DNA of 64,000 bases from Diphasiastrum complanatum (Eukaryota; Streptophyta; Lycopodiopsida; Lycopodiales; Lycopodiaceae). The notes under the pieces were generated by a model, which saw only the letters and a list, made by a program, of their open reading frames with translations, made no database searches and was not told the origin of the DNA. The translations under genes were made by a program, and so were the position numbers. Where the stretch lies: positions 38,156,036-38,220,035 of the forward strand of contig CM055106.1 in the NCBI GenBank assembly GCA_029204225.1, read 5' to 3'. Below, piece after piece: positions 5,332 to 59,487 of this stretch. Each line of letters starts with the position of its first letter. The first letter of the stretch is position 1.

Positions 5332-5474
<143 letters not shown>

Positions 5475-5513: not shown

Positions 5514-5654
<141 letters not shown>

Positions 5655-5841: not shown

Positions 5842-5952
<111 letters not shown>

Positions 5953-6389
5953 TTTATTTTTAAAAAAAAGACTCCAAAATCTTTCAATATCTTTAACCAT
6001 ACATGTACACTTCACCTCCTCTCTCTCTTTCTCTCTCACAAATTACAAATCTAATAACCATAAATCTACCATCCTAAATAATACTAATAATCTATTACAA
6101 GACCATTCAATGCAAAATTTAAAAACACACACACACACAGTCTCTCCCCATCTCTTTTGTTCTTTCACACTCTCTATCTCCTCTTCAAACAAACAAACAA
6201 ACATCAACCTCAAACAAACAAACAAAAAGCAAAACAAACAAAAATCAAACACCAACATCAAACAATGATCTTCAAGCACCTTCAAGCCCTCAAGCACTGA
6301 TCGCCCTCAATCGCTCCAAAGACGTTCAAATCTGCAAAAGACAAAGTGAAAGAGAAGGCGCTGGATCGCGCGAATTGGAAGATTGAAAC

Positions 6390-10429: not shown

Positions 10430-10605
10430 AAATTTTTTAATTACTTGTTTTGTACATCTTATGCTAAGCATAGTTGCATTCTCTCTTCTTTCAGTTGGTT
10501 CAAGACAAGAAAAATAAAGTCCTTCCAAAGCAATTCAAACGACATATTCTTAAATCGAAGGCAGAAAAAAGAGACATAGAAAGATTGGCATGGGGTGAGA
10601 GTGCA
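10430..10605 (+). pseudogene. Unit X fragment, related to 17.3 kb minus strand
   Basis: An exon-like piece begins after a TCTTTCAG acceptor at about 10496 and reads DKKNKVLPKQFKRHILKSKA followed by EKRDIERLAWGE. The same block, intron end and a shared word (ATGCTAAGCATAG) occur on the minus strand around 17290-17440. It abuts the truncated 3' end of the NPH3 relic on one side and the copia fragment on the other (junction about 10606). The protein family is not recognised. It could be a host exon spread by duplication or part of an unfamiliar transposable element. Confidence 0.55.
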
Positions 10606-12240: not shown

Positions 12241-12480
12241 GTAGAGATGACCACCAAATAGACATGACCAACTCTCTTGACTTGACCTAACCTACATTAG
12301 GAGTGGTTTTCCACGTGGCATCTTGGCCTTCCATGTGTGGAACCCAATTATACACAATATTTACAAAGTTCTACATGGCTAGATTTGCCAAAATAGGCTA
12401 GTTTTCACACTCCTCCTCAAATCTAACCTTGGAAACAATAATGTATCTATATACAATTCTAAGATCTGTGTGGAGCCTCA
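12241..12480 (-). mobile_element. Copia 3' end: polypurine tract and LTR fragment
   Basis: Read on the minus strand, about 12480-12421 resembles the last residues of a copia RNase H. It is followed by the polypurine tract TTGAGGAGGAG (12410-12420) and an LTR beginning TGTGAAAACTAG at 12409. The LTR continues to about 12241 and is then joined directly to integrase sequence of the element at 10606-12240, so it is truncated. Confidence 0.65.
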
Positions 12481-30645: not shown

Positions 30646-30964
30646 GCCATATTGTGTTTGTTTCTGTTGTCACGAATGATTTTGTGTCTTTGAATTTTCA
30701 TTTGCAAGGAAGCTTTACAGGAACCTAGACACATGACTGCACATCACAGAACACATTCTATTCTAGCAATCAAGACAGATGGCACAAGACAAGGAGATGC
30801 ACAAAAATAGAACGATTGTATTATCAGCTTGATTTGGGAGTGAGATCGTCAGTGTCTCGCTCGTTGGAGGCCTGACGCTCTGCTCTTTCGCTGTGTTCTG
30901 CTCATTGGCAGACTTTCATGCATAGCTCTTTCGTTTCTAGTGTTTTTCTTTTAGGCTCTACTCG

Positions 30965-30967
<3 letters not shown>
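30646..30967. other. Unassigned spacer 5' of the copia relic
   Basis: Would be the leader side of the minus-strand element, but no primer-binding site was found. Confidence 0.4.

Positions 30968-31043
<76 letters not shown>
30968..31043. repeat. (CT)n microsatellite, about 76 bp
   Basis: Uninterrupted CT run. Confidence 0.97.
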
Positions 31044-31048
<5 letters not shown>

Positions 31049-32536: not shown

Positions 32537-33331
32537 TGTTAAACCTGAAAAACAATCCATATTGAGTTCTTGGCTTGCTACAAATGTTGTACCATGCAAG
32601 TATGTAGCTCATTAATGCAAAATGCCAAGTTTGGCCTACATAGAACTCAAGCTACATGGTTATGTATTATCTAGTTTGATAAATGCAACTTGCATATAGT
32701 TTGTAGACATAGAATTAGCATGATTATGCTTGTAGAAACTCGTGGCAACTCACATGCATTAATTGTAAGTAATCCATAGTGACATGCATGGCATGCACAA
32801 AGTTTAATGGACACATGCATGATGATTTGGACATTTCTAGTTAGAACTAGTACACTTGTAAAAAGTTGGTAGAATTTCATGCATGACAAGTGACAAATGT
32901 CACATAGACTCTAGATGTCACTTTAGATGTCCTTTTGGAATGGATAGATATGGTTCTACCTTGAGCTACCTCAATCTCCATAAATATGTGTAGCTCTCCA
33001 CACAATAAATAATGAAGAACCAAAGTTTTGTAGCTATCTCATGCCATTTTGGATCTAAACAAATATTGCTTGTTATCTCTCTAGCTCTCTCTCTCTAACT
33101 CGTGTTGAGGCTAATGCTCATACATTGAAATCTTGTATTTTTATTCAGTCTTTGATTCATTGCTATTATACTCTGTTGATTAGCATGCTAGATTGTGGAT
33201 TAGCCATTTCTTCTGAACTAGATTTTGTTGATCAATCTAGAATCGGGTTATAGTGCCAATCACAAAGCTTAATTAAGATCAGTCACTCTTGTGGACATTC
33301 CCCACACGTGTGAATTCTGGAAATATTGTCA
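32537..33331 (+). repeat. 5' LTR (795 bp) of the 32.5 kb copia element
   Basis: Begins TGTTAAACCTG and ends ATATTGTCA, followed at once by the primer site. Near its 3' end it carries the palindrome CACACGTGTG. Confidence 0.95.
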
Positions 33332-33344
33332 TGGTATCAAAGCC
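33332..33344 (+). other. Primer-binding site (initiator Met tRNA)
   Basis: TGGTATCAAAGCC, one mismatch from the standard copia primer site TGGTATCAGAGCC, directly after the LTR end. Confidence 0.9.
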
Positions 33345-34101
33345 ACATTAAGCTTTGCATGCTAACAACTCTGATTGTACAAGAAACTGAGAGCTAAATC
33401 AAGCAAAAAAGTAGTTTTGCACTTTTTCTAACCTTTCTTTGAAGTGTATTTGGATCAAATCGGACTTGCACTGAATTTTTAGACCTGAATTGAGGAAGTA
33501 TGGAATTTTGGAATTTCGCACGTGTGAAAATCAGAGTTTTTCAGTCCCTTTGTTCTCCTTACTTATAGATCCAAAGATAGCAGTCTTATAGCTTGATGGA
33601 AAACATTTGATCTGCACTTTCCTTAGAAATTGAAATCAAATCAATCTGATGTGTCTAGCAAGAATTATAAGCTCTTAAAGAGGATAGGGATAGGTCCAAA
33701 ATCCGAGTGACAGCATTTTGATTTGATTCAATTATACTTTGTTCTAAATCCATTGTTTTGAGCATCCAACACAAGAAACTATAGATCAAGACTGAGTTTG
33801 AAGTATTTGAACACCCTTTGATCCTTCTGAGTGTCAATAGTGTTTTCTTTTGAAGCATTTCACACGTGCCAAAAGTAGGATTCAAACCAGCCAAAGTGTC
33901 TCAAACCACTTTTTGTGTCTGATCTAGATAACTTGTCTTGTTGAATATTTGAGATTCTTCTCATATATAGTTGCAAGTGTTTCACATAGGAAAGTAGTTT
34001 AACCTTGAAAATACCTATAGTAAAAGAGAGCAGCAACTCTAAGTCTGATACGAACAAGCTCAAGCCTATTTCAATCCAATAACTAAGAAGTCTTCATTAT
34101 A

Positions 34102-35265
34102 ATGGCATCTCAGGGAGGATATCTTCTAGAAGCCAGTGAAAGACTAAACACTTCTAATTACTCAATTTGGAAGTTAAGAATGGAGTCTGTTTTGATTCTC
34201 CAGGATGTTATGGATATTGTGCTTGGTGTTGAGGAGGAGCCTCAAGCACAAGTTGAAATTCCTAAATATAAGAAGAGAGCTAGAATGGCTCTACATTTCA
34301 TTAAGATGAATGTATCTAATGAAATTTTGAGAGAGATAGGACCTTGCACTACAGCCAAAGAAACTTGGGATGCACTAAAGACCATCTATGAAGCAAAGAA
34401 TAATTCTAGAATACTCACTCTTAGGAATCAGATTTTCCAAAGTTTCCAAAGAAGTGAAGAGAGTGCATCTAACTATGTTTTGAGAGTTAAAGATTTACAT
34501 AGAGAGCTTTCCTGTGTTGGTATTACCATTAACCAAGTTGAGCTAGTTCAAGTCATACTGAATGGCTTGAGAGATGACTATGATAATCTTGTTCAGTCTT
34601 TTGCTATGAAGGAGGAGTTACCTAATCTAGAAACTCTCCAAGGAATTCTTATTTCTGAAGAATCTAGACAAAGCTATAAACTCTCCAAGATGAACGAACT
34701 TGAACATGGTGGAAGTGACAAAGTCCTCTTTGTCAAAGGCAAGCAGAAAGGAAGGAGTAAGAACCAATTCTCTCAAGCATACAACAAAGACAAAGCCAAA
34801 GATCGAGATCAAGACGGTGAAGAGGATGAAACATCTCATCCCTCTAACTCAAAAACCAAGAAGAAGAAAGTGAAGTGCTTCTTCTGTGGCAAAAAGGGGC
34901 ACTATGCCTCTAATTGCTTTAAGAAGAAAAACCAACTCAAGCAAGCTAATCTCTCCAAGGAGATTGAAGAAGATTCTGTTGCAAGTGATGGAGAAGGATC
35001 ACTTATGGTGTCCAGTTTTTCTTCATCACCTTTCAAGAAAGATGGAGCTTGGTACATAGACAGTGGAGCCTCTTCACATATGTGCTGTTCAAAAGAGTCA
35101 TTTGACTCAATCTTACCTTTCAAAGGACTCAAGAGATCTATTTACATAGCTAATGATCATGAGTGTCCAATAGAAGGAATTAGCAACATTCCATTGAAAC
35201 TTGCCTCTTCAAAAGTTCTTGCACTTTCTAATGTTCTTTTTATTCCAAAACTTCAAAGAACTTAA
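34102..35265 (+). CDS. Copia Gag-protease, 387 codons
   Basis: The open frame begins MASQGGYLLEASERLNTSNY after a roughly 760-bp leader. The Gag retrotransposon domain (UBN2-type) occupies about residues 10-200 (SIWKLRMESVLILQDVMDIV, LVQVILNGLRDDYDNLVQSF). A zinc knuckle CFFCGKKGHYASNC sits near residue 260 and a lysine-rich stretch precedes it. The aspartic protease starts at WYIDSGASSHMC near residue 320. The frame stops at LQRT because of a one-base shift; the expected continuation (ISVGKLLDNG) is in the next frame at 35271. Gag itself is intact and could still be made. It packages RNA and forms virus-like particles in the cytoplasm in related elements. Confidence 0.92.
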   Translation: MASQGGYLLEASERLNTSNYSIWKLRMESVLILQDVMDIVLGVEEEPQAQVEIPKYKKRARMALHFIKMNVSNEILREIGPCTTAKETWDALKTIYEAKNNSRILTLRNQIFQSFQRSEESASNYVLRVKDLHRELSCVGITINQVELVQVILNGLRDDYDNLVQSFAMKEELPNLETLQGILISEESRQSYKLSKMNELEHGGSDKVLFVKGKQKGRSKNQFSQAYNKDKAKDRDQDGEEDETSHPSNSKTKKKKVKCFFCGKKGHYASNCFKKKNQLKQANLSKEIEEDSVASDGEGSLMVSSFSSSPFKKDGAWYIDSGASSHMCCSKESFDSILPFKGLKRSIYIANDHECPIEGISNIPLKLASSKVLALSNVLFIPKLQRT

Positions 35266-36975
35266 TTAGTGTGGGAAAGTTGCTTGATAATGGTTGTGAT
35301 GTAAAGTTCAACTCCAATACTTGTTTTATCAAGAGAAAAGATGAGATCCTTGCTGATGGAACTAGATGTGGTGGAATTTTTAAGTTGAATTCTTATGAGA
35401 ATGCAAACCTTTGTGAAGTTGTTTTGTTATCTAAGGAGGAGCTGTGGCATAGAAGGTTGGGACATCCTAACTTTACATCTATGTCTTCTATGGTTAAGAA
35501 GGAGAAGGCTATTGGTCTTCCAAAATCTCTTTCTAAAGATTTCAAGCCTTGTGAGGCTTGTGCCATTGCAAAGTCACACAGAAAGCCATATCAGAAGTCT
35601 TTTATAAAGACTACTTATCCATTGGAACTCATACATTCAGATGTACATTTTTTCTCTTCTAAAAGTATTGGTGGTGCAACATGTTTTGGCACCTTTATTG
35701 ATGACTTTACTAGATACACTTGGTTGTATCTACTTTCTTCAAAGGCTATGGTTTTTGATCACTTCCTTATCTTCAAAGCTTATGTAGAAAAATAGTTTTC
35801 TTGCAAAGTCAAAGCTTTAAGATGCGATGGAGGAGGTGAATATATCTCCAACAAGTTTCATAATTATTGTGAAGGTGAAGGAATAAAGAGAGAATTTTCT
35901 TGTGCCTATTCTACATCTCAAAATGGAGTAGCTGAGAGGAAAAATAGATCTTTATGTGAATGTGCTAAAGCAATTCGAGTAGCAGTTTCTTTGTCTATTG
36001 AATATTGGGGTGAAGCTATAAATTGTGCAAAGTATTTGTGCAATAGATTACCTCACAATGCTCTTGCTGGAAAAACACCTTTTGAAGTCTTGTTTCAGAA
36101 AAAACCTAAGGTAGATCACCTTAGAGTTTTTGGTTATACTTGCTTTGTTAATATGCCCTTGGAAACAAGGAAAATAGATGATCCTAATTTTGTTAAAGGG
36201 ATCATGGTTGGATATGCATCCAACAAAAAAGCTTACAGGATCTATGTTCCCTCTACCTCAACTACAATTGAGAGTAGAGATGTGATATTCCATGAAGATC
36301 AAAAATACATTCTTGAGAAGGCCTAGTGTTACAATAACTAGACCTGACATAAGCTTTAGTGTCCATAAGTTGAGCCAGGCTATGCAAAATTCTTCAATTT
36401 ATCATTGGAAAAAGGCCAAGAGAGTGCTTAGATATATATCTTCAACTTTTGATTTTGGTTTATTATATAGAAGTGAAGATATTTCTATTATTGGTTATTC
36501 TGACTCAGATTTTGCAAGTGATAAAGCATATCGGAAATCTACAAGTGCTTATGTCATATATCTTGGAGGAAACTTGATATCTTGGCTTTCCAAAAAGCAA
36601 GATATTGTATCACTCTCATCATGTGAAGCTGAGTACAAGGCACTCACTACAACAACAAAGGAAGTGCTTTGGATCAAGAGGTTACTAGTAGAGCTAAAGA
36701 CAATCATGGAAGAAAATATACCTATGATCATGTGTGACAACATTTGAGCTCAAGCCCTTGCCAACAACCCAATATTCCATGCAAGGAGCAAGCATATCGA
36801 AGTTGCACATCACTTCGTGAGAGAGAAGCTCATTGGAGGTGAAATCAAATTGGAGCACATCGACACATCATCTTGCATTGCAGATATGATCACCAAACCT
36901 TTGAGCAAAAGTTCCTTCAAGAAGCATAGAGCCAACCTTGGCGTTATACCAAGATCCATGTTCAAATCAATATAG
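35266..36975 (+). pseudogene. Copia integrase and RNase H, RT deleted
   Basis: This continues the polyprotein in another frame. 35271-35795 holds the protease end, the GAG-pre-integrase block LWHRRLGHPNF...CEACAIAKSHRKPY and the integrase start (LIHSDVHFFSSKSIGGATCF, FIDDFTRYTW), closing at a TAG at 35793. Integrase continues with CDGGGEYISNKFHNY, SQNGVAERKNRSLCE, PKVDHLRVFGYTCF and SRDVIFHEDQ to about 36315. There the sequence jumps directly to the RNase H side, TRPDISFSVHKLSQAMQ, GYSDSDFASD, SSCEAEYKAL, and after a stop at 36746 to HARSKHIEVAHHFVREKL and SMFKSI. The whole RT catalytic region, including YVDD, is missing. Confidence 0.93.
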
Positions 36976-36980
36976 ATCAT

Positions 36981-36992
36981 TTTTAGGAGGAG
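36981..36992 (+). other. Polypurine tract
   Basis: TTTTAGGAGGAG immediately before the 3' LTR, the second-strand primer site in copia replication. Confidence 0.85.
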
Positions 36993-37787
36993 TATTAAAA
37001 TTGAAAAACAATCCATATTGATTTTTTGGCTTGCTACAAATGTTGTACCATGCAAGTATGTAGCTCATTAATGCAAAATGCCAAGTTTGGCCTACATAGA
37101 ACTCGAGCTACATGGTTATGTATTATCTAGTTTGATAAATGCAACTTGCATATAATTTGTAGACATAGAATTAGCATGATTATGCTTGTAGAAACTCGTG
37201 GCAACTCACATGCATTGATTGTAAGTGATCCATAGTGACATGCAAGGCATGCACAAAGTTTAATGGACACATGCATGATGATTTGGACATTTCTAGTTAG
37301 AACTAGTACACTTGTAAAAAGTTGGTAGAATTTCATGCATGACAAGTGACAAATGTCACATAGACTCTAGATGTCACTTTAGATGTCATTTTGGAATGGA
37401 TAGATATGGTTCTACCTTGAGCTACCTCAATCTCCATAAATATGTGTAGCTCTCCACACAATAAATAATGAAGAACCAAAGTTTTGTAGCTATCTCATGC
37501 CATTTTGGATCTAAACAAATATTGCTTGCTATCTCTCTAGCTCTCTCTCTCTAACTCGTGTTGAGGCTAATGCTCATACATTGAAATCTTATATTTTTAT
37601 TCATTCTTTGATTCATTGCTATTATATTCTGTTGATTAGCATGCTAGATTGTGGATTAGCCATTTCTTCTGAACTAGATTTTGTTGATCAATCTAGAATC
37701 AGGTTATAGTGCCAATCACAAAGCTTAATTAAGATCAGTCACTCTTGTGGACATTCCCCACACCTGTGAATTCTGGAAATTTTGTCA
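36993..37787 (+). repeat. 3' LTR (795 bp) of the 32.5 kb copia element
   Basis: Same length and sequence as the 5' LTR apart from about 18 substitutions. Its first bases have decayed from TG to TA. Confidence 0.95.
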
Positions 37788-44560: not shown

Positions 44561-45427
44561 CAAGGATCAACAAACAAGGGAGAGGAAAAAGGAAGCAGGT
44601 ACGTCCCTTGATACCATCACCCACTCCTCTTCCCTCTTCAAAAATGCGGCAACAATCTGTCAGACCCTCTGTATACATCTCACATTAGCTTCAGTATTCC
44701 GAGGGCCTCACTAAATTAGATTCAGTATTTCATGGTCTGTTTTGAGATGCATTTCGAGGCCTCCACTAAATGTTAAAATCAACTCAAAATTGTTGCATTC
44801 TAAAATCACACAATTTTCAAAGATTGTCGATCGTTATATTTCCAAGCCTTGTCAAAGAATATATAGTGCACTGAACCTAACCGGCGGGTACACTATTTCT
44901 CAAGAACCGACTTATGTGTAGAACAAACGGTTATGCTCTTTTGTAAGAACCGATCATGGTTGAGAACCCTCGGGTCCCTTTGAGCCTTGGATTGAGGGTG
45001 TGGCCGTCATTTGGAGGGGGTATATCCCGAGTATCAATTCACCCTACAAAACCTAACATTCATTAAGGGATTTTAGCAAGTGACTATTTATTCATGAGTA
45101 GGATGAGTAAGAGGATGTTACGATAGACAGTATTGTAACAAGACTTTTTTCAAGTTTCAAGGCTTCTTTGAGTGAAATTATTCAACCACAAGAGTGACAG
45201 GTACATGACTAGATGTGAGAATGTTATATATGGACTTGCTAGTCACCCAATTGTGCCCTTGGAAAATTGTGCTTGTTAACTACTATTAAAAAAGAGAGGC
45301 TTGCTAAGATATTTTGCAATCACCTAATTTCTACACATTTTTTGTTCCTTTGTGCCACCATCGTGAATCAATTTGCAGTATCTAAAACCCTATAGGAATA
45401 GTTATTTGACTTCCCCTCATCATAAAT
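44561..45427. other. Unassigned spacer
   Basis: No gene or repeat family recognised. The first 110 bp or so of LTR D may lie here, too diverged to see. Confidence 0.4.
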
Positions 45428-46155
45428 GTGAAGAATTGAAAAAGATTATCTATGTTAAATATAGGGGTCTTATGTTTTTTATATCAAGCATCTAGGTGTA
45501 GGATGTTGATAGGAACAAATTTGGCATAGATGGCATGCATTTCCACTTGTAATGCCACTATTGAGCCAAAATAGAGTAAGAGGCTAAACTCGTGCCAGTT
45601 AGAGTGTAGACAAGTGTAATGGATTTGTTTGATGAATTCTAAGAGGTTCAATAGGATTTAGAGGTGGAACCATGTGAGGTCCAATAGGAATTTGAGGTTT
45701 GCTTGAAAATAGTCCCATAGAATTTAGAGGTGCATGGATCAATGGTCCAATAGGATTAAGAGGTGGAAAAGTGTGGTCCAATCATAGTTAAGCATAGTGG
45801 TAGCTCGTGGATCTACTAGTATCATTGTACTCCTCATTTGGATCTAATTGATTTGGAGATTGTGTGGATTATGAGTGTCATTGGATTTCTAGCTCTCTCT
45901 CTTTAAACGAGAGCTATTGATGATTTTCTCTCTCTACCCAAGGAGAGTAGCTTGTTTTTACTTAGAATAATTTCTTAATACTTCCCACACATGTGAGTGA
46001 GAGTTGGAAGTGATTGAATGCATGTAGTAGTGTGTTTTTGCCATAGAATCAAAGATAGATCTTGAATCTCAATCTAGTCTTAATCTTGGTGCATCTACAC
46101 ACCTTAGGAGATCACATGTACATGTTGTGGACACTCCACACGTGTGAAATCTACA
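45428..46155 (+). mobile_element. LTR D, plus-strand 5' copy
   Basis: Matches the LTR at 55081-55870 and, in reverse, 52473-53291. It ends CACGTGTGAAATCTACA and is followed by the primer site TGGTATCAGAGCC at 46156. Its outer end is diverged or lost. It is more diverged from the other two LTR D copies than they are from each other. Confidence 0.85.
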
Positions 46156-46858
46156 TGGTATCAGAGCCTACCTAAGGTGACCATGCATTTTGATCCATTT
46201 AAGTGAAAACTATTCATCAATCTTGAGCTAGAAATTGTCAAGATCCATTTTCCTAACTATCTTGTCCAATTTTGGATCAAAAGAGATCAAAAGGGCATTG
46301 ATTGGATCTGGCCTGGTTTTGTACGGAATCAGGTACTCAGACATGTGTGAGGAACATTCAATTTCAGTTTAGAAGTTCTCTCTCATGCTTGATCCATTTA
46401 TCTTGCTTGATAGCTTGTTTTGAAGCTATTTTTGTCTCGTTTCTGATGCAATCAATTTCATTCCATTTGGTTGATCCAATCAAAAGTTATAAGCTTTTGA
46501 AGAGGGTTAGATAGGGCACCTAGACCTGGGTGGACACATTTGGTTTGGTCAAGAGATTGCTTGGTTGATCCAAAATCACAGGTGAATGCTTACCAATCTC
46601 ATCTATATGTGATCTAGGCACTGTTTTGAGATCTTAGCCATTTTGTTTCATGCAATATCATTGTATTTGAGTCAAATTTGTTTTCTTAGTGTACTTCACA
46701 TGTGCTAAGAGTGTTTGATTCTAACTTTGCCCATACTCCATCATTTGATGTGAAATAGATCTTGTTTTAGAGAGATTTGTGTAGCTAGTGAGAACCAATT
46801 CACAAATAGTTGCAAGATCTTTCATAGGAGAAGATAGTTCTCCATTATTGGATCCTAT
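46156..46858 (+). mobile_element. Copia D primer site and leader
   Basis: The primer site TGGTATCAGAGCC (46156-46168) is followed by a leader of about 690 bp, collinear with the reverse complement of 51780-52459. Homology stops at TTGGATCCTAT (46858), only about four bases short of the leader position where the plus-strand fragment at 53292 begins. Confidence 0.85.
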
Positions 46859-48830
46859 TGATAACCATCAATAGTAGCCGGTTGCACAAGTATTGGCCAC
46901 CGCAGTGAGATAGATCCAGGTTGGTGGTGGCATGTTACGAAAAGCTATTCTGCTAGGCCATCACAACTAGATCTAGGAAGATCAAGCCAAATCAAGCTAG
47001 ATCCATCAAGATTCAGCCAGATCTGGCAAGATCGGAGAAATCCATGAATTTGAGTCATTTGTCACCTTTGTTGACGAAGCTCTGTTCAAATTTTCACTAG
47101 AATTTTCAAGTTCTCTGATTGCGACCAGACTTCATACAAGCTATCATCTGCACATTCTAAACTCAGATTTCTGCTCTAAACTACAGTTCTTACCATCCGA
47201 CACTCATTATTCACAGTTTTTGTCATTTCCATCTCTTTTTATCTTTTCCATCGTTTTTTCTACTTTTTCACACTTTACGTATCACTGCTAACATGGCCTC
47301 TTCATCCTCTGAAGACTCTGGCACCAAGCAGGTGATCCAGCATGAGATACCCTCAACCACACAGATTTGGACCTTACCCTCTAACACTCTGATTCAACCA
47401 TGACTTCAGACTGCTGGCCTACTTCTTGAGGCAATGGATTTTTTTTCAGCGCTTTTCCATTTTGAGATTAACATGGGCCTCGCCCTTCATGCTTATGCCA
47501 CTTGGGACACGTCAAAGTCGCGCTTCCACTTCATGTACCAAGGTACCACGTACAAGGTCAGGATTAACGCGGACTCGATGGTCATCGTTGGCATTATGTC
47601 CCTGACCATCAGCCCATCTCCCATCGTCAGACAAAAAGCCTGATCAAATCTTTTGTCACCAAGACTGCACCAGAGATCTCCATCCAAACTAACAACGGTT
47701 ACCTGATAGAGACTATCACGGAACCAGTCATACAGATGGTTGTGCATTTGTTGAACAGCTTTCTAGTTGTTTCAACATTTTGCAAGGATAGAATCCAGTC
47801 CACGCTGCTGAGTCAGATAGTGGAGTCCTTCCTAGGATTCCCTGGCCCCACGGTTGTGCCATATGACTGGCATGTATTTCTCATTCACAAACTAACCATC
47901 TCCATCAAATCCAACAACCATGAGCATATCGCAGTAGGTCCCCTGTTGTGTAACTTTTCTTGCGCACTTCTCGAGGCAAAAGTGCACGATTTCCACCACT
48001 CCAACCTTCTATCTTCCATCGTGCCGCACACTAACCTTTATCTGCCATCTGTCGCATCCACATCCTCCCAACCTGCAGTTACTAACACAACGGCCAGCAA
48101 AAGAATGCGTGGCGCTGTCCCTTCCTCCTCATCTCCACCTACCACCAGACGACGTACCACCGCCACATCAGTAACCACTCCATCAATCACCACCACTTCT
48201 TCTTCTGTACAACCTCCATGAACGCGCACTTCTTGCCATGCACACGACGATCCAAATGGGTGGAATGCGGCACCCCTCTAGACAAGCTCACTATTCAAAA
48301 CTTCAATTGGCCAAGGATTCCATAAGATCATGGTTGGGATACAAATGTAGACGCCCGAAGGGCTCTCACCTTATTTGCCAATAAATATTTCAACTGCCCT
48401 GATCCAATAGTCCGCGTAGTAGCCACTCACGCCGGAGACTTAGAGCACTTATTGGGGATTGAAACCAAGTGGGACAATCTTCCCCCCCATATTCTTTGAT
48501 CCTAATAAGGCACTCGCCTCTGACAAAGTCGAAGATCAGCTGCCAGTCGCTCGAGTCTATTACCGAGCTGCATTCCTTGGCGATCCCTAAATGCGTAGAT
48601 TCCAAGCGTGAGTCGACCAAGACTGGTTGATAGGAGTCCACAAGTCCCTTCACATGCCCAAGGACTTGGACTGCATCAACTTCATGGAAGACGTTACAGA
48701 CTACCTGGTCCACCAGAGGTGGGCAAAGAAGACTCTTTACTGAACCGGCAGAGTGCCGAGGGACCGGCACTACTTCAGGGAGTGGGTCCTGTTGGGGGTA
48801 TTCCCGACGAATTGTAAATAAATAAAATCG
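46859..48830 (+). pseudogene. Unrecognised gag-like coding remnant
   Basis: Plus-strand open pieces read MASSSSEDSGTKQVIQHEIP (about 47293), EAMDFFSALFHFEINMGLAL then HAYATWDTSKSRFHFMYQGT (47434-47643). A further open piece, 47736-48221, has a Ser/Thr/Pro-rich end (SSSSPPTTRRRTTATSVTTP). Later fragments include RRALTLFANKYFNCPDPIVR at about 48356-48500 and DLDCINFMEDVTDYLVHQRW at about 48665-48725. The style resembles plant gag-like 'putative transposon protein' sequences. Stops and shifts are frequent. No pol domain was found. Local GC content is higher than its surroundings. It starts TGATAACC at 46859, directly at the break in the copia D leader. Confidence 0.4.
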
Positions 48831-49055
48831 ACCAGTAAAATGTGTTGCGAGGGCATGACATCTGGCACGTATAAGCCCATGGCCCAATGAGCACGCAAGC
48901 TTAAGTTGTAGATAAAATAAAATAGACTTGGGCCTTTGTAATTAAAATAAAAGTCAATTTTAAACTTAGAGTTTACTCTTTTAGAGTGGGTCCAATTTTG
49001 GACTCACATGAATCTTGTGATTTCCAATGTACTTTTTGTGGACCCTTGGATCAAG
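48831..49055. other. Spacer at the broken 3' end of the minus-strand copia D copy
   Basis: No gene recognised. The minus-strand element loses homology to its relative at about 49056, before the polypurine tract and 3' LTR. Confidence 0.5.
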
Positions 49056-49142
49056 TTGAGAAGTTTGTAAATCTTTTTTAGTGGATCCTTTGGTATGCAT
49101 AAGAAGTGAAGATCAGCCAAGGGATCCATCATAGCATCACCC

Positions 49143-51338
49143 TCACCATATCCATGATAAGATCTCTTTGGTAGAGATCTCTTGCCAATGCCTTTGAAGA
49201 GTGCTCCACCAATATGCCACTATTATCATGGGCTTCCTCCATGCTTGATGATGATCTTTGCCTTGAAAGTTCCACTTGCATGATGGATGCACCATAAATA
49301 GAGAAATCTGAGGCTTCCAAGCCTCATAAGAATCATGGAGATCAAGATCATAAGATGTGAAACAATGATGATTATCAAGATTATGCTTTCTAGCTTGACT
49401 AGTCCACATACAATGAACTATATCCATGATGGATCTAATCTTGATATCAAAGACTATCTTGATCTTTTTTAGGCTAGTTACTCTCTCAAGGATGTAAGTG
49501 TCCACTTTGGATGCTTCACTTAATCTCAAGAGGAGTTTACAATTTGCCTCAAAACATGTGAAAACATGATTTTCAAAAAAGTGAGTACCAAGCTCAATCT
49601 TGTTCTTACTAGAACCAAGAGCATACTTTTGACAATACAATATCTTGCTTTCAAAAAGTATTGGAAACACATCTAAGTCAATAATGACAAGAAACATGTC
49701 CATACCATAAGCATCATACAAAACTAGTATAGCTTTTCTTGAACTTTGAGATCCAAAAAATTCAATGAAGCAAGATAGCATTTCAAGCAAAGGAAGAGAA
49801 GCATTTATGAATGTGTTGTAGTAGATACAACATGAAAGATGCCCCTCTTTGCCATGTAAGGTGAGCCATAAAGACTCGGCCATGCATCTTGAAGATCTTC
49901 TTAAAATCATATGAAGAAGAAACTCCTCCTCACACATTGGCCCCATCATAACTTGAATACCTTCAAAAAGGATAACTTGTGATGCTTCTTGAGAAGCCTT
50001 GATCTCGGCCACTTCCAAGATTGAATCTTCATGCAATATGACATCTCTATTCACGATCACATTTGAAATAGAGAGTGTAAAGACACTAAAGGCCTCCTTG
50101 ATGGATGCATATCCAATCATGATCCATGAGCTTGGATCATCCTTCCTTCTTGTTTCCAAGGGAATATGTGCAAAGCAAGCACTACCAAGTTCACGAAGGT
50201 GATCAACCTTAGGCTTCATCTTGAATAAAACTTCATATGGTGCTATTCCTTTAAGAGTTCCAATACTCCTCAAAGCTTTGATCTTCAATGAGAATTTCTT
50301 CTCAACATATGCTTTGAATAATAAGGAATAATCATACACCATAATACTTGAAGAGAGAAGATATGTGCATCTTGTGTAATCCTCCTCCTTTGAAATATTG
50401 GAAATATAAGAAACATCAAGAGAGTTTGCACTCTCACTTGGATCCAATTTGTAGATGCCTTCAAATCTTGATCCATATGCAAGGATCTCACCATCCTTCT
50501 TAATCACACAATTGTCAATATTGAAATTGACATCAAAGCCACTATCAAGAAGTTGGCCAACACTTAAGATGTTCTTTGTAAGATTTGGGACAAAAAGAAC
50601 ATTGTTGAGAAAGAGATCTTTAGAAGATGCAAGCTTCAAGGGAATAATCCCTACTCCTTCAATATCGCACTCATGCTTACTTGCAAAGTATATGGCCTTC
50701 TTGACTCCATCATAAGGCATAATAGATGAAAAAAAGTGCTTGGAGCCACACATATGTGAAGATGCTCCATTATCAATATACCATGAGTCATCCTTGTTGA
50801 AGGTGGAAGAGGAGAAGCTTGATGCCATAAGAGAGCCTTCTCCATCACTTGCAATATAGTCTTCTTTCTCATTGGTGATGTTGGCTTGATTGAGTTGATT
50901 CTTCTTCTTGAAGCAATTGGTGGCATAATGGCCTTTCTTGCCACAATAAAAGCACTTGATCATCTTCTTCTTGAGATTTGAATTAGAAGCATGAGAGGTA
51001 TCCTCCTCCTCTCCATCTTGGTCTTTAGCTTTGTCATTAGAGAAGTGATGGTGTTGCTTCTTACTCCACTCTTTGTGCTTGGCAAATAGAACTTTGCCAT
51101 CATCATGATTGAGTGATAGCTTGTCCATCCTCAAGAGTTTGTACTCTTGTCTTGATTCTTCAGAAATAAGCACACTTTGAAGGGCCTCCAAACTTGGTAG
51201 CTCCTCCTTAATAGCATAGGATTGGACAAGGTTGTCATATTCATCTCTCAAGCCATTGAGAATGACTTGGACTAGCTCACTTTGATTGATTGAGTCACCA
51301 ATATATGCAAGCTCCCTATGAATATTCTTGACTCTCAA
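49143..51338 (-). CDS. Copia D derivative: 731-codon Gag-protease-integrase-remnant fusion
   Basis: One minus-strand frame runs 731 codons. In order it holds the Gag C-terminal half (SELVQVILNGLRDEYDNLVQ), a zinc knuckle CFYCGKKGHYATNC, the protease start with a changed active site (WYIDNGASSHMCG; Asn where Ser is usual), LLSVGQLLDSGFDVNF, then a jump over the pre-integrase HHCC region to SLLFKAYVEKKFSLKIKALR. A second jump over the integrase catalytic core leads to GIAPYEVLFKMKPKVDHLRE and SNVIVNRDVILHED. RT and RNase H are absent. The last 210 or so codons, from EFFGSQSSRKAILVLYDAYG to QEISTKEILSWIW, match nothing I recognise but are nearly identical in the copy at 54342-54984. All deletions keep the frame. 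The Gag N-terminal part lies in another frame at 51335-51715. Whether it is expressed is unknown. Confidence 0.8.
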   Translation of the reverse strand: MRVKNIHRELAYIGDSINQSELVQVILNGLRDEYDNLVQSYAIKEELPSLEALQSVLISEESRQEYKLLRMDKLSLNHDDGKVLFAKHKEWSKKQHHHFSNDKAKDQDGEEEDTSHASNSNLKKKMIKCFYCGKKGHYATNCFKKKNQLNQANITNEKEDYIASDGEGSLMASSFSSSTFNKDDSWYIDNGASSHMCGSKHFFSSIMPYDGVKKAIYFASKHECDIEGVGIIPLKLASSKDLFLNNVLFVPNLTKNILSVGQLLDSGFDVNFNIDNCVIKKDGEILAYGSRFEGIYKLDPSESANSLDVSYISNISKEEDYTRCTYLLSSSIMVYDYSLLFKAYVEKKFSLKIKALRSIGTLKGIAPYEVLFKMKPKVDHLRELGSACFAHIPLETRRKDDPSSWIMIGYASIKEAFSVFTLSISNVIVNRDVILHEDSILEVAEIKASQEASQVILFEGIQVMMGPMCEEEFLLHMILRRSSRCMAESLWLTLHGKEGHLSCCIYYNTFINASLPLLEMLSCFIEFFGSQSSRKAILVLYDAYGMDMFLVIIDLDVFPILFESKILYCQKYALGSSKNKIELGTHFFENHVFTCFEANCKLLLRLSEASKVDTYILERVTSLKKIKIVFDIKIRSIMDIVHCMWTSQARKHNLDNHHCFTSYDLDLHDSYEAWKPQISLFMVHPSCKWNFQGKDHHQAWRKPMIIVAYWWSTLQRHWQEISTKEILSWIW

Positions 51339-51715
51339 AACATAATTAGATGCACTCTCATCACTCTTTTGACTACTTTGGAATATTTGATTTCTAAGAT
51401 GAGGAGTCTAGAGGTGTTCTTAGACTCATAGATGGACTTGAGACAATCCCAAGCTTCCTTGGATGTAGAACAATCACCAATCTCCCTCAATATCTCATTA
51501 GAGACATTCATCTTAATGTAGTAGAGAGCCATCCTGGCTCTCTTCTTGTATTTTTGTACTTCTTGAAGGACTTGAGGCTCCTCCTCAATCCCAAGTACAA
51601 TGTCCATCACATCTTGGAGTATCAAGATGGACTCCATCCTCAACTTCCATATTGAATAATTGGAAGTAGACAATCTCTCACTTGGTTGCAACAAGTATGA
51701 ACTCATTGAAGTCAT
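51335..51715 (-). pseudogene. Copia D Gag N-terminal part, frameshifted
   Basis: It starts MTSMSSYLLQPSERLSTSNY and contains SIWKLRMESILILQDVMDIV, the Gag N-terminal block. Near 51405 the frame slips (LLILEIKYSK where the sister copy reads LLTLRNQIFQ). One indel therefore separates it from the 731-codon frame that begins at 51338. Confidence 0.9.
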
Positions 51716-52472
51716 GTAAAGTGGAGATAAATAAAAGTGATGAACAAAAAATGTTGCTTCTCTCTCACTATAGGATCCAATAATGGTGTGCTACCATCTC
51801 CTATGCAAGATCTTGCAACAAACTGTGAGATGATTCTCACTAGCTATCTCAATCTCTCCAAAACTAGATCTACTTCACATCAAATAATGGAGTATGGGAA
51901 AAGTTAGGATCAAACACTATTAGCACGTGTGAAATATACTAAGAAACCAAATTTGACTCAAATACAATGATATTGCATGAAACAAAATGGCTAAGATCTC
52001 AAAACAGTTTCTAGATCACATATAGATGAGATTGGTAAGCATTCAACTTTGATTTTGGATCAAACAAGCAATCTTTTGACCAAACCAAATGCGTCCACCC
52101 AGGTCTAGGTGCCCTACCTAACCCTATTCAAAAGCTTATAACTTTTGATTGGCTCAACCAAATGGAATGAAACTGATTACATCAGAAACTAGACAAAAAT
52201 AGCTTCAAAACAAGCTATCTAGCAAGATTTTTGGATCAAACATGAAGGAGAACTCCCAAACCGAAATTGGATGTTCCTCACACGTGTCTGAGCACCTGAT
52301 TCGGTACAGTACTAGGTCAGACCCAATCAATGTCCTTTTGATCTCTTTTGATCCAAAATTGAACAAGATAGCTAGGAAAATGGGCCTTGACAATTTCTAG
52401 CTCAAGATTGATGAATAGTTTTCACTCAAATGGATCAAAATGCATGGTAATCTTAGGTAGGCTCTGATACCA
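51716..52472 (-). mobile_element. Copia D leader and primer site (minus strand)
   Basis: A leader of about 740 bp without coding domains. The antisense primer site GGCTCTGATACCA lies at 52460-52472, next to the LTR. Confidence 0.88.
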
Positions 52473-53291
52473 TGTTGAATTTCACACGTGTGGACTGTCC
52501 ACTACATGTACTTGTGATCTCCTAAGGTGTGTAGATGCACCAAGATCAAGACTAGATTGAGATTCAAGATCAATCTTGAATCCTATGGCAAAAACACACT
52601 ACTACATGCATTCAATCACTTCCAACTCTCACTCACACATGTGGAAAGTGTTCCAAAAGTATTCTAAGTAAAAACAAGCTGCTCTCCTCGGGTAGAGAGA
52701 GAAAAACCGTCATGAGCTCTCAGGTAGAGAGAGAAAGCTAGAAATTCAATGACACTCAAAATCCACTCAATCTCAAAATCAATTAGATCCAAAAGAGGAG
52801 TACAATTATATCAATAGATTCATGAGCTACCACTATGCTTAACTATGATTGGATCTCACTTTGCCACCTCTTAATCCTATTGGACCATTGATCCATGCAC
52901 CTCTAAATTCTATTGGACTATATTCAAGCACACCTCAATTTTCTATTGGACCTCACAAGGTTCCACCTCTAAATCCTATTGGACCTCTTAAGCTTCATCA
53001 AACAAAAGCATGACACTTGTCTACACTCTAATTGGCACAAGTTTGGCTCTATTTTGGCTCAATATTGGCATTACAAGTGGAAATGGATAATTTGCCATCT
53101 ATGCCAAATTTGACCCTATCAACATCCTACACCTAAATGCTTGACTATGAAATTCTATGAGACCCCTATATGAAACATTTTGATTTACTTTACAATTCTC
53201 CACACGTGGGAACATCCTCCACACATGTGAGATTCACTTACAAACTTCTATCATGAAAAATACCAAGCTAGATTTTTGCCAATTTCTCACA
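52473..53291 (-). mobile_element. LTR D, antisense 5' LTR (819 bp)
   Basis: On the minus strand it begins TGTGAGAAATTGGC at 53291 and ends AAATTCAACA at 52473 beside the primer site. It contains G-box-like palindromes (CACACGTGTGG, CCCACGTGTGG). Its outer end abuts internal leader sequence of the plus-strand copy (AGAGAGAAGC at 53292). Confidence 0.92.
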
Positions 53292-54341
53292 AGAGAGAAG
53301 CAACATTTTTTTGTTTATCACTTTTATTTATCTCCACTTTACATGACTTCAATGAGTTCATGCTTGTTGCAACCAAGTGAGAGATTGTATACTTCCAATT
53401 ATTCAATATGGAAGTTGAGGATGGAGTCCATCTTGATACTCCAAGATGTGATGGACATTGTACTTGGGATTGAGGAGGAGCCTCAAGTCCTTCAAGAAGT
53501 ACAAAAATACAAGAAGAGAGCTAGGATGGCTCTCCACTACATTAAGATGAATGTCTCTAATGAGATATTGAGGGAGATTGGTGATTGTTCTACATCCAAG
53601 GAATCTTGGGATTGTCTCAAGTCCATCTATGAGGCTAAGAACACCTCTAGGCTCCTCACTCTTAGAAATCAAATATTCCAAAGTAGTCAAAAGAGTGATG
53701 AGAGTGCATCTAATTATGTTTTGAGAGTCAAGGATATTCATAGGGAGCTTGCATGTATTGGTGACTCAATCAATCAAAGTGAGCTAGTCCAAGTCATTCT
53801 CAATGGCTTGAGAGATGAATATGACAACATTGTCCAATCCTATGCCATTAAGGAGGAGCTACCAAGTTTGGAGGCCCTTCAAAGTGTGCTTATTTCTGAA
53901 GAATCAAGACAAGAGTACAAACTCTTGAGGATGGACAAGCTATCACTCAATCATGATGATGGCAAAGTTCTATTTGCCAAGCACAAAGAGAGGAGTAAGA
54001 AGAAACACCATCACTTCTCTAATGACAAAGCTAAAGACCAAGATGGAGAAGAGGAGGAAGATACCTCTCATGCTTCTACTTCAAATCTCAAGAAGAAGAA
54101 GATCAAGTGCTTTTATTGTGGCAAAAAAGACCATTATGCCACCAATTGCTTCAAGAAGAAGAATCAACTCAATCAAGCCAACATCACCAATGAGAAAGAA
54201 GACTATATTGCAAGTGATGGAGAAGGCTCTCTTATGGCATCAAGCTTCTCCTCTTTCACCTTCAACAAGGATGACTCATGGTATATTGATAGTGGAGCAT
54301 CTTCACATATGTGTGGCTCCAAGCACTTTTTTTCATCTTGA
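53292..54341 (+). pseudogene. Copia D plus-strand copy: Gag and protease start
   Basis: After a 51-bp leader remnant the start codon at 53343 opens MTSMSSCLLQPSERLYTSNY. The frame runs through the full Gag, a zinc knuckle with one change (CFYCGKKDHYATNC, Asp for Gly) and the protease start with a normal WYIDSGASSHMCG. It stops at 54340 where an internal deletion joins it out of frame to the EFFGSQ block. Gag is intact here, unlike the frameshifted minus-strand copy. Confidence 0.9.
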
Positions 54342-54984
54342 ATTTTTTGGATCTCAAAGTTCAAGAAAAGCTATACTAGTTTTGTATGATGCTTATGGTA
54401 TGGACATGTTTCTTGTCATTATTGACTTAGATGTGTTTCCAATACTTTTTGAAAGCAAGATATTGTATTGTCAAAAGTATGCTCTTGGTTCTAGTAAGAA
54501 CAAGATTGAGCTTGGTACTCACTTTTTTGAAAATCATGTTTTCACATGTTTTAAGGCAAATTGTAAACTCCTCTTGAGATTAAGTGAAGCATCCAAAGTG
54601 GACACTTACATCCTTGAGAGAGTAACTAGCCTAAAAAAGATCAAGATAGTCTTTGATATCAAGATTAGATCCATCATGGATATAGTTCATTGTATGTGGA
54701 CTAGTCAAGCTAGAAAGCATAATCTTGATAATCATCATTGTTTCACATCTTATGATCTTGATCTCCATGATCCTTATGAGGCTTGGAAGCCTCAGATTTC
54801 TCTATTTATGGTGCATCCATCATGCAAGTGGAACTTTCAAATCAAAGATCATCATCAAGCATGGAGGAAGCCCATGATCATAGTGGCATATTGGTGGAGC
54901 ACTCTTCAAAGGCATTGGCAAGAGATCTCTACCAAAGAGATCTTATCATGGATATGGTGCTGCTATGATGGATCCCTAGGCTGA
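54342..54984 (+). CDS. Copia D conserved C-terminal block, unrecognised
   Basis: An open frame of about 213 codons, from EFFGSQSSRKAILVLYDAYG through LGTHFFENHVFTCFKANCKL to EILSWIWCCYDGSLG. It matches the end of the 731-codon frame with only about three amino-acid differences by eye. A deletion of about 1 kb has removed the protease-integrase portion between this block and Gag, leaving it fused out of frame to Gag. The longest open frame containing it begins upstream, at 53953. It is Leu/Ile/Phe-rich with several Cys and His but shows no motif I know. It may be captured or scrambled pol sequence. Confidence 0.5.
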
Positions 54985-55066
54985 TCTTCACTTCTTATGC
55001 ATACCAAATGATCCACTCAAAAATATTTACAAACTTCTCAAGTGATCTAGTACCTTTCCAAGCTAT

Positions 55067-55080
55067 TTTTTGAGGAGGAG
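55067..55080 (+). other. Polypurine tract of copia D
   Basis: TTTTTGAGGAGGAG immediately before the LTR at 55081. Confidence 0.85.
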
Positions 55081-55870
55081 TGTGAGAAATTGGCAAAAAT
55101 CTAGCTTGGTATTTTTTATGATAGAAGTTTGTAAGTGAATCTCACATGTGTGGAGGATGTTCCCACGTGTGGAGAATTGTAAAGTAAATAAAAATGTTTG
55201 ATATAATTTCATAGTCAAGCATTTAGGTGTAGGATGTTGATAGGGTCAAAATTGGCATAGATGGCAAATTATCCATTTCCACTTGTAATGCCACTATTGA
55301 GCCAAAATAGAGTAGGAGGCCAAACTTGTTTTAATTAGAGTGTAGACAAGTGTAATGCTTTTGTTTGATGAATTCCAAGAGGTCCAATAGGATTTAGAGG
55401 TGGAACCTTGTGAGGTCCAATAGGAAATTGAGGTGTGCTTGAATATAGTCCAATAGAATTAAGAGGTGCATGGATCAATGATCGAATAGGATCAAGAGGT
55501 GACAAAATATGGTCCAATCATAGTTAAGCATAGTGGTAGCTCGTGGACCTACTAGTATCATTGTACTCCTCATTTTGAATCTAATTGATTTGGCGATTTC
55601 ATGGATTTTGTGAGTTATTGGATTTCTAGCTTTCTCTCTCTACCCGAGAGCTCATGATGCATTTTCTCTCTCTACCCGAGGAGAGCAGCTTGTTTTTACT
55701 TAGATTACTTTTGTGAGTTGGAAGTGATTGAATGCATGTAGTAGTGTGTTTTTGCCATAGGATCTAAGATTGATTTTGAATCTCAATCTAGTCTTGATCT
55801 TGGTGCATCTACACACCTCAGGAGATCACAAGTACATGTAGTGGACAGTCCACATGTGTGAAATTCAACA
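55081..55870 (+). mobile_element. LTR D, plus-strand 3' LTR (790 bp)
   Basis: Begins TGTGAGAAATTGGC after the polypurine tract and ends GAAATTCAACA at 55870. The next base enters the integrase region of another copia element, so this element is nested in copia E. Confidence 0.93.
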
Positions 55871-57812
55871 TTAAAGGACTGACACCTTATGAAGTATTGT
55901 TTGGCAAAAAGCCAAATCTTAGTGATTTGAAAGTTTTTGGATGTACTTGTTATGTACATATTCCTTTAGATACAAGGAAAAAGGAAGATGTCACTTCTTT
56001 CAAAGGCATATTTGTTGGTTATAGTGAAAGTAAGAAAGCTTATAGGATATATGATCCTATTACAAAAAAAGTTGTTGCTAGTAGAGATGTATTTTTTGAT
56101 GAATCTCTCCAAGCCAAAGGAAAGGTGACTTCCAACAACACTCAACTTGTCAAAGATCATGCTATGGCCGAGGAGGAGCTTCATGAAGATGAAGACCAAG
56201 TGGAACCTACTCCAAGTCCAAGGGTGCCAAGAAGATCAACAAGGACAAGGATTGAGCCATCAAGGCTCACTTATAGTGACAAAGGGGAGCAAAGGGAAGA
56301 TTCTCAACTACTCAACTCTTATACTTTCTTGACTAGTATGCTTGAATAACCAACTAGTTTTGAGGAAGCCAATAAGTCTCAATATTGGAGGAAAGCTATG
56401 CAAGTAGAGTTTGATGCATTAATGGAAAATCAACCTTGGAAACTTGTTGATTTACCTTATGGAAAGAAGCCTCTTACTTGCAAATGGATATATAGATTGA
56501 AATATAATCAAGATGGTTCCATTCATAAGTACAAAGCTAGACTTGTAGCAAAACATTTTTTGCAAGTCAAAGGCATAGATTATGATGAAACCTTTGCACC
56601 TATTGCAAAGCTTCTGACCATTAGAATAATCATATGTCTTGCAACTTCTTTCAAATGTGAGCTCTTCCAACTTGATGTGACAAATGCTTTCTTGAATGAA
56701 TTTTTGGAAGAGGAAATCTACATGTGCCAACCCGAGAGCTTCATCAAAGATGGAGAAGAAGAAAAGGTGTTGTAAGTTATTATGAACCATCATTGTACTA
56801 CAAATGTAATGATGGAAAGATCATTATCTTAGTTTTATATTTTGATGATATTATACTCACAGGAAATGATCTAGATGGCATCAAGAATGTAAAAGTCTCC
56901 TTGTCTAGTGAAATTAAGATGGTATATCTAGGACTTCTTAAAGTTATACTTGGAATAGAAGTCACTAGAAGTAATGATTTTACCCTCATATGTCAATCTA
57001 AGTATGCTAGATCAATCTTAGCAAGATTTGGCATGATTGATTGTAAAGGAGTTGAAACTCCTATGGAACTAAGTGTAAAAGTTTCTAAGGAAAGTGATGA
57101 GGCATCCTTTGGACATCACTACCTATAGAATGCTTATTGGTTCCTTGATATACTTAACCATTACTAGACCAGATCTTAGTTTTTGTGTTGGCAAGTTGAG
57201 TCAATACATGCAAAGTCCATTAATATGTCATTGGAAAGGAGCAAAAAGGGTGTTAAGGTACATGTTGGCTACAAAAGACTTTGGCATAGTTTATGAAAGG
57301 ACTAATATTTGTTTGAGAGCATATTCGGACTCAAGTTTTGCAGGTGACAAAATGAATAGAAGATCCATAAGTGCATTTGCTACATTTTTATGTGGAGGAG
57401 CTATATCTTGGCTTTCCAAAAAGCAAGATACCATCTTTCTTTCATCAACAAAATCCAAATATAAAGCTATGACAACAACAACAAAGGAGGTTCTTTGGCT
57501 TAAAAGGCTTTTGGAGGAGCTACATGTGATCAAGGATGAAGACATTTCATGCATATATTGTGATCAAGCAGCTCAACAACTTGCAAACAATCAGTCTTCC
57601 ATGCTCGAACAAAGCACATCGAGATTGCACATCATTTCGTGAGGGAGAAAGTTCAAGCAAAGGAGATCAAGATTATTCATGTTTCATCATCAGATTGCAT
57701 TGCTGATATACTCACCAAGGCATTTCCTAAAGATCCATTTATAAAATTAAGATTGGCTCTTGGAGTTATAGATAGATCTATGCTAGATTTACCAAGCTAG
57801 ATTTTTGAGGAG
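55871..57812 (+). pseudogene. Copia E pol: integrase end, RT, RNase H
   Basis: It begins mid-integrase (TPYEVLFGKKPNLSDLKVFG, GIFVGYSESKKAYRIYDPIT, SRDVFFDES), with a Pro/Ser linker ending RRSTRTRIEPSRL. RT follows: KPLTCKWIYRLKYNQDGSIH, RLVAKHFLQVKGIDYDETFA and QLDVTNAFLNEFLEEEIYMC (56398-56775). A deletion of about 90 bp removes the LYGLKQAPRAW block. RT continues as YFDDIILTGNDLDG (catalytic FDD rather than VDD) and GIEVTRS. RNase H blocks are LIGSLIYLTITRPDLSFCVG, AYSDSSFAGD and KSKYKAMTTTTKEVLW (57094-57642), followed in another frame by the tail to 57800. Stops at 56349, 56775 and 57128 and frame changes make it a pseudogene. The 5' half is missing, replaced by the copia D insertion. 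Confidence 0.93.
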
Positions 57813-58172
57813 TGTGAAAAATACAAAAATAAGCTTGGTAGAGGCCAAAAATATTGTATATAGGATAGACACACACGTGTGGAGCCTGTTCCCACGTGTA
57901 AAACTAGTGTACTTTTCATGTAACATAATCATATATGTTGTACATATGATTTAAATCAAGTTCTAGTGGCTAAAATGGCCAAAAACTAGTTTTTTAGAGA
58001 TATGACACATGGCACCAATCTAATGATTGCATGAGCCAAATATTTTGAATAGGTGTCACATCCCATGTGTAGAGGATAGCTCACACATGTGGAAATAGCT
58101 GAAGTAGACGAGTTTTTGCTTCTAGAAGATTTCCATGAAGATCTCCATATAGTCCAAAAATGCCCAAAAGAC
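57813..58172 (+). mobile_element. Copia E 3' LTR (family B), truncated
   Basis: It begins TGTGAAAAATAC after TTTTTGAGGAG and follows the solo LTR at 58659-59482 for its first 360 bp or so. It then loses homology after CTCCATATAGT. Confidence 0.9.
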
Positions 58173-58653: not shown

Positions 58654-59487
58654 TTTATTGTGAAAAATGCAAAATTAAGCTTGGTAGAGGCCAAAAACCT
58701 TGTATATAGGATAGACACACATGTGTGGAGCCTGTTCCCACGTGTGAAACTAGCGTGCTTTTCATGTACCATAATCATATATGTTGTACATATGATTTAA
58801 ATCAAGTTCTAGTGGCTAAAATAGCCAAAAACTGATTTTCTAGAGATATGACACATGGAACCAATCTAATGATTGCATGAGTCAAATATTTTGAATAGGT
58901 GTCACATCCCATGTGTAGAGGACAGCTCACACGTGTGGAAATAGCTGAAGTAGGCGAGCTTTTGCTTCTAGAAGATGTCCATGAAGATCTCCATATAGTA
59001 GGAAAATAGACCAAAAATGTCCAAAATGGAAAGTTTTGATCCAAGTGTCAAATTGTGTGATGGTGACAAGGCATCCTCACGCATGTGAGATCTAATGCAT
59101 GATTAGTACCTCGAGCTCCAAAAGTGTATATATATAGAGGCTTATTTGGCCATAATCAATGTGAGACACCAATCTTGGTTTTGGAAGCAATTTTGAGTGA
59201 TTCTCTCCATTTGCCTACATTTGTTTTGATTGTTTTGAGGTTCTATCAATGTGTACTTGATTTTCAGGTTGGAGTTCGTACTCAGACAGTGTTTCACACA
59301 TGTGAAACCAAAAAGTACACCTACCTTCAATTAATGATTGTTCTTGTTAGGATTTTGTGTCTAGAATTGATCTAGATTGATCTTAATTTCAAGTAGATTG
59401 ATAGATCAAGTAAACTGACAACCAATCCCTCTTGAGGATTAGATTAGGATCCACTCTTGGTCCTTTTTGTACTTTTTTCACATTTAT
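58654..59487 (+). mobile_element. Solo LTR B (824 bp) with TTTAT target duplication
   Basis: The LTR itself is 58659-59482. It begins TGTGAAAAATGC and ends ACTTTTTTCACA, so its ends are inverted repeats (TGTGAAAA/TTTTCACA). It is flanked by TTTAT at 58654-58658 and 59483-59487. No internal sequence is present, so this is a solo LTR formed by LTR-LTR recombination. It is inserted in LTR C and belongs to the same family as the copia E 3' LTR. A TATA-like GTATATATATAGAGG lies at about 59126. Confidence 0.95.

Follow-up and report, generated by a model that had tools for sequence, protein, structure and literature searches.

A 731-codon open frame in a probably dead, RT-less copia copy of Diphasiastrum complanatum

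The minus strand of the analysed window (64,000 nt of Diphasiastrum complanatum DNA) carries an open frame of 731 codons in the open reading frame listing, which extends to 754 codons (49143–51407) when measured from stop to stop. The element that contains it, designated A, is probably the truncated, dead remainder of a copia LTR retrotransposon, the frame of which has stayed open mainly by inheritance. A is most likely a genome parasite in ordinary decay and not an active one living on Gag only, and it is classed here among the decayed copia relics, a kind of element that is already known. Judging from its sequence, the frame is not a usable gene and cannot make a whole Gag protein, because the Gag start is cut off, the called start is a mechanical TTG, the protease motif reads DNG, and the element ends before the polypurine tract (PPT) and 3' LTR. 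The features referred to below are as follows.

52473–53291, minus: 5' LTR of element A, 819 bp, TGTGAG...TCAACA (start placed from the homologous 3' LTR of element B, end from the PBS)
51716–52472, minus: PBS (TGGTATCAGAGCC) and untranslated leader of A (leader 90% identical to fragment C)
51335–51715, minus: N-terminal half of Gag of A, from the Gag ATG (51715) to a premature stop
49143–51338, minus: 731-codon frame with the C-terminal part of Gag, zinc knuckle, protease start (DNG), integrase remnants and about 256 further codons
49916–50384, minus: what two in-frame deletions (258 bp and 228 bp, measured against element E) have left of the integrase of A
49146–49915, minus: open 3' extension without homology found (most tests were run on 49146–49961)
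46859–49048, no strand assigned: sequence of unplaced origin in the place expected for the 3' end, PPT and 3' LTR of A
45427–46858, plus: fragment C, with a 5'-truncated LTR, PBS and leader of the family of A, ending where B begins
53292–55870, plus: element B, with gag, a 959-bp deletion, 3' region, PPT and 3' LTR (55081–55870), followed directly by element D at 55871

A Pfam scan of the frame, with matches accepted up to an E-value of 1, revealed Retrotran_gag_2 (PF14223; C-terminal part only, profile positions 106–168 of 172), zf-CCHC (PF00098), Pol_BBD around the protease start, and an integrase SH3-like domain, and returned neither RVT_2 nor an integrase catalytic domain. As in Ty1/copia elements, a copia-type Gag and zinc knuckle are present, and the LTR of A starts with TG and ends with CA, after which comes the PBS. 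The integrase SH3 remnant sits after the protease, with no RT left to order it against. The initial annotation had described an RT-less copia derivative with one 731-codon frame that skips the HHCC block, the integrase core, RT and RNase H; both the frame and the copia assignment were confirmed, and the four regions are missing. It had also listed Gag, zinc knuckle and protease start as the content of the frame, of which the latter two are found, whereas Gag is represented by its C-terminal part. The protease motif is DNG in A and DSG, the catalytic motif of the protease, in B and E. The first in-frame ATG (51128) lies downstream of the Pfam Gag match, and the frame has no ATG upstream of the C-terminal part of Gag.

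The Gag coding region of A is split. A single base present in both B and E is missing near 51399, because of which the frame that opens with the Gag ATG stops at 51335, and the N-terminal part is therefore separate from the 731-codon frame. At the other end, the match between A and B stops at 49049 to 49056, which is 25–30 bp short of the position of the PPT in B; A has a 5' LTR only, and its PPT and 3' LTR are absent. The 2.2 kb found in their place contain two stretches, of 217 and 183 codons, that are open, and the scanned pieces yielded no family match above cut-off. The weak Pfam matches seen there (RUS6_N, E-values 0.059 and 0.01; Beta-barrel_SelB, E-value 0.005) are all below the Pfam cut-offs and were regarded as chance.

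Two of the losses in the pol region can be measured against E (34087–36747). A lacks a stretch of 258 bp that runs from the end of the protease region to the integrase start and takes in the HHCC block, and in the integrase core it lacks another 228 bp; according to the alignment coordinates, both lengths are multiples of three, and the two junctions in A lie near 50385 and 50258. Close to the first junction, A has moreover lost one base and gained another in comparison with E and F, and the two changes cancel each other within a few codons. The third loss, that of RT and RNase H, is followed by nothing homologous, and only the two deletions can be scored for frame. It had been argued in the initial annotation that several frame-keeping deletions are unlikely to arise by chance. 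Both measurable deletions do keep the frame, but the chance of this is 1/9, and they thus favour that argument only weakly.

Comparison with E demonstrated that Gag was under purifying selection in the deeper ancestry of A and B. For the C-terminal part, the dN/dS of either A or B against E is about 0.095 over 224 codons; for the N-terminal part (102 codons) it is 0.034 for A–E, with dS near saturation, and was not computable for B–E, the computable Gag values of A and B ranging from 0.034 to 0.096 overall. No selection is apparent in the copies as they stand today. Over 102 + 225 codons, A and B differ by 15 nonsynonymous and 5 synonymous changes, a ratio which fits neutrality (binomial p = 0.57) and not the ancestral ratio (p = 2 × 10−5). 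Selection on the frame, as proposed in the initial annotation, is therefore seen in the past ancestry of Gag and not in the present frame, where the neutral A–B differences are found together with a frameshifted Gag, a changed protease motif and a missing 3' LTR. A dN/dS near 1 between copies had been named there as evidence against selection, and the A–B comparison, which is a single pair, comes out near-neutral.

The integrase remnant gave a different picture. On the branch to A, its dN is 0.172 (95% interval, 0.107–0.249) versus 0.069 for F, as estimated from two relatives and 78 of the 84 gap-free codons, after the six trailing ones had been dropped as ambiguous; the dS of the same branch, 0.084 (−0.646 to 0.42), has too wide an interval to be informative. 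In bootstrap replicates, the dN of A was not above that of F in 7 out of 1000, and the dN/dS was not above in 27 out of 1000. The dN of A also exceeds half of the leader divergence between A and C (0.102/2), and the remnant holds no stops versus approximately 2.4 expected under neutrality. The excess of change without stops hints at a longer life without integrase, and the remnant was, to judge from these sequence estimates, probably less constrained; an integrase-less, Gag-bearing non-autonomous phase may thus have occurred in the ancestry of A. On the other hand, A keeps 22 of 34 conserved residues shared by E, F and D, the corresponding counts being 34/42 for E, 34/44 for F and 34/54 for D, so that by this measure A resembles the outgroup D.

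The copia homology of A, as detected with F, ends near 49916, which leaves about 256 of the 731 codons without an identified relative. From 49915, these 256 codons are open, while the other two sense frames contain 14 and 25 stops. Most of the tests were performed on the last 272 codons (49961–49146), the first 15 or so of which still align with F; here 15 and 26 stops fall in the two remaining sense frames, and none of 20,000 order-2 simulations of the 816 nt was fully open (median longest run, 76 codons). The 3' extension is open beyond chance, and simple decay gives no account of this. Over the 201 codons comparable with B, it is open in both copies and differs at 5 of 603 nt, affecting four codons, three of them nonsynonymously. 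The codon score of the extension is approximately zero, about equal to that of one off-frame, versus 0.17 for the part from Gag to integrase. Nine copia stretches from the window served to train the score; they are partly decayed and include the gag of B, and since that gag is 98% identical to the gag of A, the Gag score of A is flattered. Searches with the extension returned nothing from Pfam at an E-value of 0.5, one match far below cut-off from NCBIfam (E-value, 0.1), and one from PDB (E-value, 0.4). RNase H was considered as its origin and rejected: when the 272-codon piece was aligned locally with nine frames from E, D and X22, the z-scores ranged from −1.2 to 2.6, the best of which (X22, frame 2) was reached by 4 of 200 shuffles, and a tblastn search with RT and RNase H pieces had no match in the extension. 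A Peptidase_M48_N match (E-value, 0.1) in an off-frame piece was below the Pfam cut-off and was treated as chance.

Elements C (plus), A (minus) and B (plus) form an inverted trio of one copia family at 45427–55870. B, on the opposite strand, is 98% identical to A (K2P, 0.0205 over 1042 sites of gag and 0.0157 over 709 sites of the 3' region). Its gag opens with an ATG at 53343, an ATG further upstream (53253) falling within the LTR of A, and closes at 54339–54341 with a stop made at the 959-bp deletion; this yields a Gag frame of 332 codons, ending just after the protease motif. The 959 bp absent from B are kept in A, and B has lost with them the entire stretch that carries the deletion junctions of A. 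The divergence between C and A is about 0.10 (K2P; 0.102 for the leader). The purine run GAGGAGGAG (55072–55080) directly precedes the 3' LTR of B, which begins with TGTGAG, and the LTR of the neighbouring D likewise seems to come after GAGGAG; the start of the 5' LTR of A was placed at 53291 because the homologous LTR of B begins after its purine run. An arrangement of A and C as tandem copies, which rested on an LTR start at 53126, was abandoned once these purine runs moved the start to 53291, and autointegration of A, suggested by early coordinates, was rejected as well, ordinary insertion explaining the junction with the corrected start.

In the numbering of A, the points where C stops and B starts are four bases apart, and the LTR start of A abuts the gag-side sequence of B; A has thus probably landed inside an element made up of C and B. 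B has no adjoining 5' LTR of its own and carries a 3' LTR only, unless C is its 5' LTR. Their position leads us to infer that C and B once formed a single element, which A has split into two halves, whereas the divergence speaks against it: the LTRs of C and B diverge by 0.108, versus 0.02 between A and B internally, which conflicts with the C–B pairing. Across the whole LTR alignment, the informative sites group A with B at 52, A with C at 25, and B with C at 21. In mid-LTR (columns 320–479) the counts are 3, 14 and 10, respectively, the three copies being about equally distant and B no closer to C than A is. Gene conversion or recombination would reconcile the likeness of A and B inside the elements with its lack in mid-LTR.

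Element E (32539–37787) is the closest relative in Gag, with 66–76% protein identity to A. It belongs to a related family and has two LTRs, which are identical at 97.9% over 793 bp; sequence of gag, integrase and RNase H is retained, and the frame is broken in several places. Like A, it is a copia relative from which most of RT has been deleted (no RT match was found between 34087 and 36747); unlike A, it has both LTRs, which share only short pieces with that of A, and still contains integrase and RNase H. The LTR of D also shares only short pieces with that of A, which within the window is matched at length only by B and C, and no autonomous partner bearing the LTR of A was found in the window. 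The integrase of D, which adjoins B, is 41% identical to the integrase remnant of A. D (55871–57800) begins directly where the 3' LTR of B ends and consists of pieces of integrase SH3, RT and RNase H; upstream of C, no 5' half of D was found. F (10553–12286, minus) is a scrambled copia integrase, in which the C-terminal end is followed by protease/pre-integrase sequence and then by a second integrase stretch (10957–10583). A search for relatives of the 271-aa Gag–protease part in viral_contigs, a viral rather than plant genome collection, gave six pattern-matching stretches, none of them confirmed, and the DNA of the 731-codon frame had no match in the plasmids collection, which likewise holds no plant genomes.

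According to the literature, TR-GAG elements are non-autonomous LTR elements of plants, defined in Inpactor by GAG alone or GAG and AP (PMC6022998), and transposition of a copia-type TR-GAG has been reported in Arabidopsis ddm1 (PMC8704663). That A is a recently dead member of such a non-autonomous copia family, with Gag selected and integrase and RT borrowed from an autonomous relative, is unlikely, although the strong conservation of Gag against E, the two in-frame deletions, the PBS, 5' LTR and leader of A, and an integrase remnant that seems to have been little constrained for longer than A and C have been separate would all suit it, as does the Arabidopsis precedent. AT5TE33540 of ATCOPIA63 is, like A, an LTR element with a Gag coding sequence and without RT, and copia-type members are known (PMC8704663); A differs from it and from TR-GAG in having one LTR, a split Gag and no PPT. 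Neither copy has two LTRs (A has the 5' and B the 3', with the proviso on C given above) or an intact Gag frame with an adjoining 5' LTR, and the integrase SH3 remnant of A falls outside the definition of GAG or GAG and AP (PMC6022998). In addition, the window contains no independent copy with the junctions, the A–B differences are neutral, Gag is broken in A and the frame of B ends just after the protease motif. The branch estimates come from 78 codons and two relatives with a dS interval that includes negative values, the conserved residues of A are no worse kept than those of D, and E and F are themselves decayed. The suggestion in the initial annotation of a Gag-type parasite of an autonomous copia may hold for the ancestor of A, but given the neutral A–B differences and the broken Gag it finds no support in the 731-codon frame itself. 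A wider version, in which a long-lived copia Gag parasite with its own extra 3' protein of about 200 codons or more, its integrase core and RT lost in frame, its Gag selected and its integrase remnant drifting, left A, B and C as relics, appears rather improbable. Other non-autonomous copia elements, namely BARE-2 and degenerate RLC_Angela subfamilies of cereals, are thought to use the proteins of an autonomous partner (PMC9744471). In BARE-2, the reverse of A is seen, with Gag disrupted and other genes kept, and the RLC_Angela subfamilies are element populations, whereas here only A, B and C are known. RLG_Sabrina_SA of wheat (GAG-Pro only) resembles A in keeping Gag and protease and losing RT and INT, and differs in being gypsy-type, with an intact GAG-Pro frame and a family of which 15,427 full-length elements were analysed (PMC9744471).

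Two further readings are both very improbable. The frame might be a new host or element gene, with the 3' extension captured and fused to Gag remnants; the openness of the extension beyond chance, shared with B over 201 codons at 5 of 603 differing nucleotides, would favour this, but the extension has no acceptable match in Pfam, NCBIfam or PDB, its codon score is near zero in frame and about equal to one off-frame, no ATG precedes the C-terminal part of Gag, and the window offers no independent copy that could show selection. It is equally doubtful that the A/B inverted repeat, the arms of which (approximately 1.05 kb and 0.7 kb, 98% identity, spacer of approximately 1.5 kb) provide the inverted duplication of element sequence expected of a hairpin silencing locus, would be read from the LTR of C into a long hairpin RNA and give small RNAs against the family. 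This reading is by analogy with Mu killer, a duplicated and inverted part of MuDR that produces hairpin RNA (PMC2563033). The LTR of C does lie upstream in the right orientation, but it is truncated at its 5' end, and nested insertion alone produces inverted retroelement pairs. Such pairs are common in plant genomes.

For the decayed copia copy, which is the preferred reading, the direct observations are the anatomy of A, the frameshift, the in-frame sizes of the deletions, and the neutral-looking A–B differences; the openness of the 3' extension, the excess amino-acid change without stops in the integrase remnant, and the divergence between C and B count against it. An ancestor would have lost the HHCC block, integrase core, RT and RNase H through internal deletion, and any spread in the RT-less state would presumably have needed the proteins of an autonomous relative, no such partner having been found in the window. 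A would then have inserted in minus orientation where leader and gag meet in another copy of its family (C and B), and afterwards would have come to be without its 3' LTR and with the 1-nt deletion in Gag, in what we infer to be the order of events. The frame would be open owing mainly to inherited Gag, protease and integrase coding sequence, two in-frame deletions, and too few changes since constraint ended. A long open frame in a retroelement relic thus need not imply selection, since it can result from inherited coding sequence together with a small number of in-frame deletions. Should the lineage have persisted on Gag alone, the contrast between the conserved Gag and the drifting integrase remnant, which share a frame, would be of help in dating when autonomy was lost.

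The content of the window is plant-like, with an NPH3 gene fragment and many copia pieces. Just after D, there is a direct repeat of about 358 bp (57813–58169 and 58659–59016; 93% identity), which is probably LTR sequence. CT-type simple repeats with strong strand asymmetry are located at 4352–5964 and 30956–31046, and the GC skew reaches −0.83 at 4001–6000.
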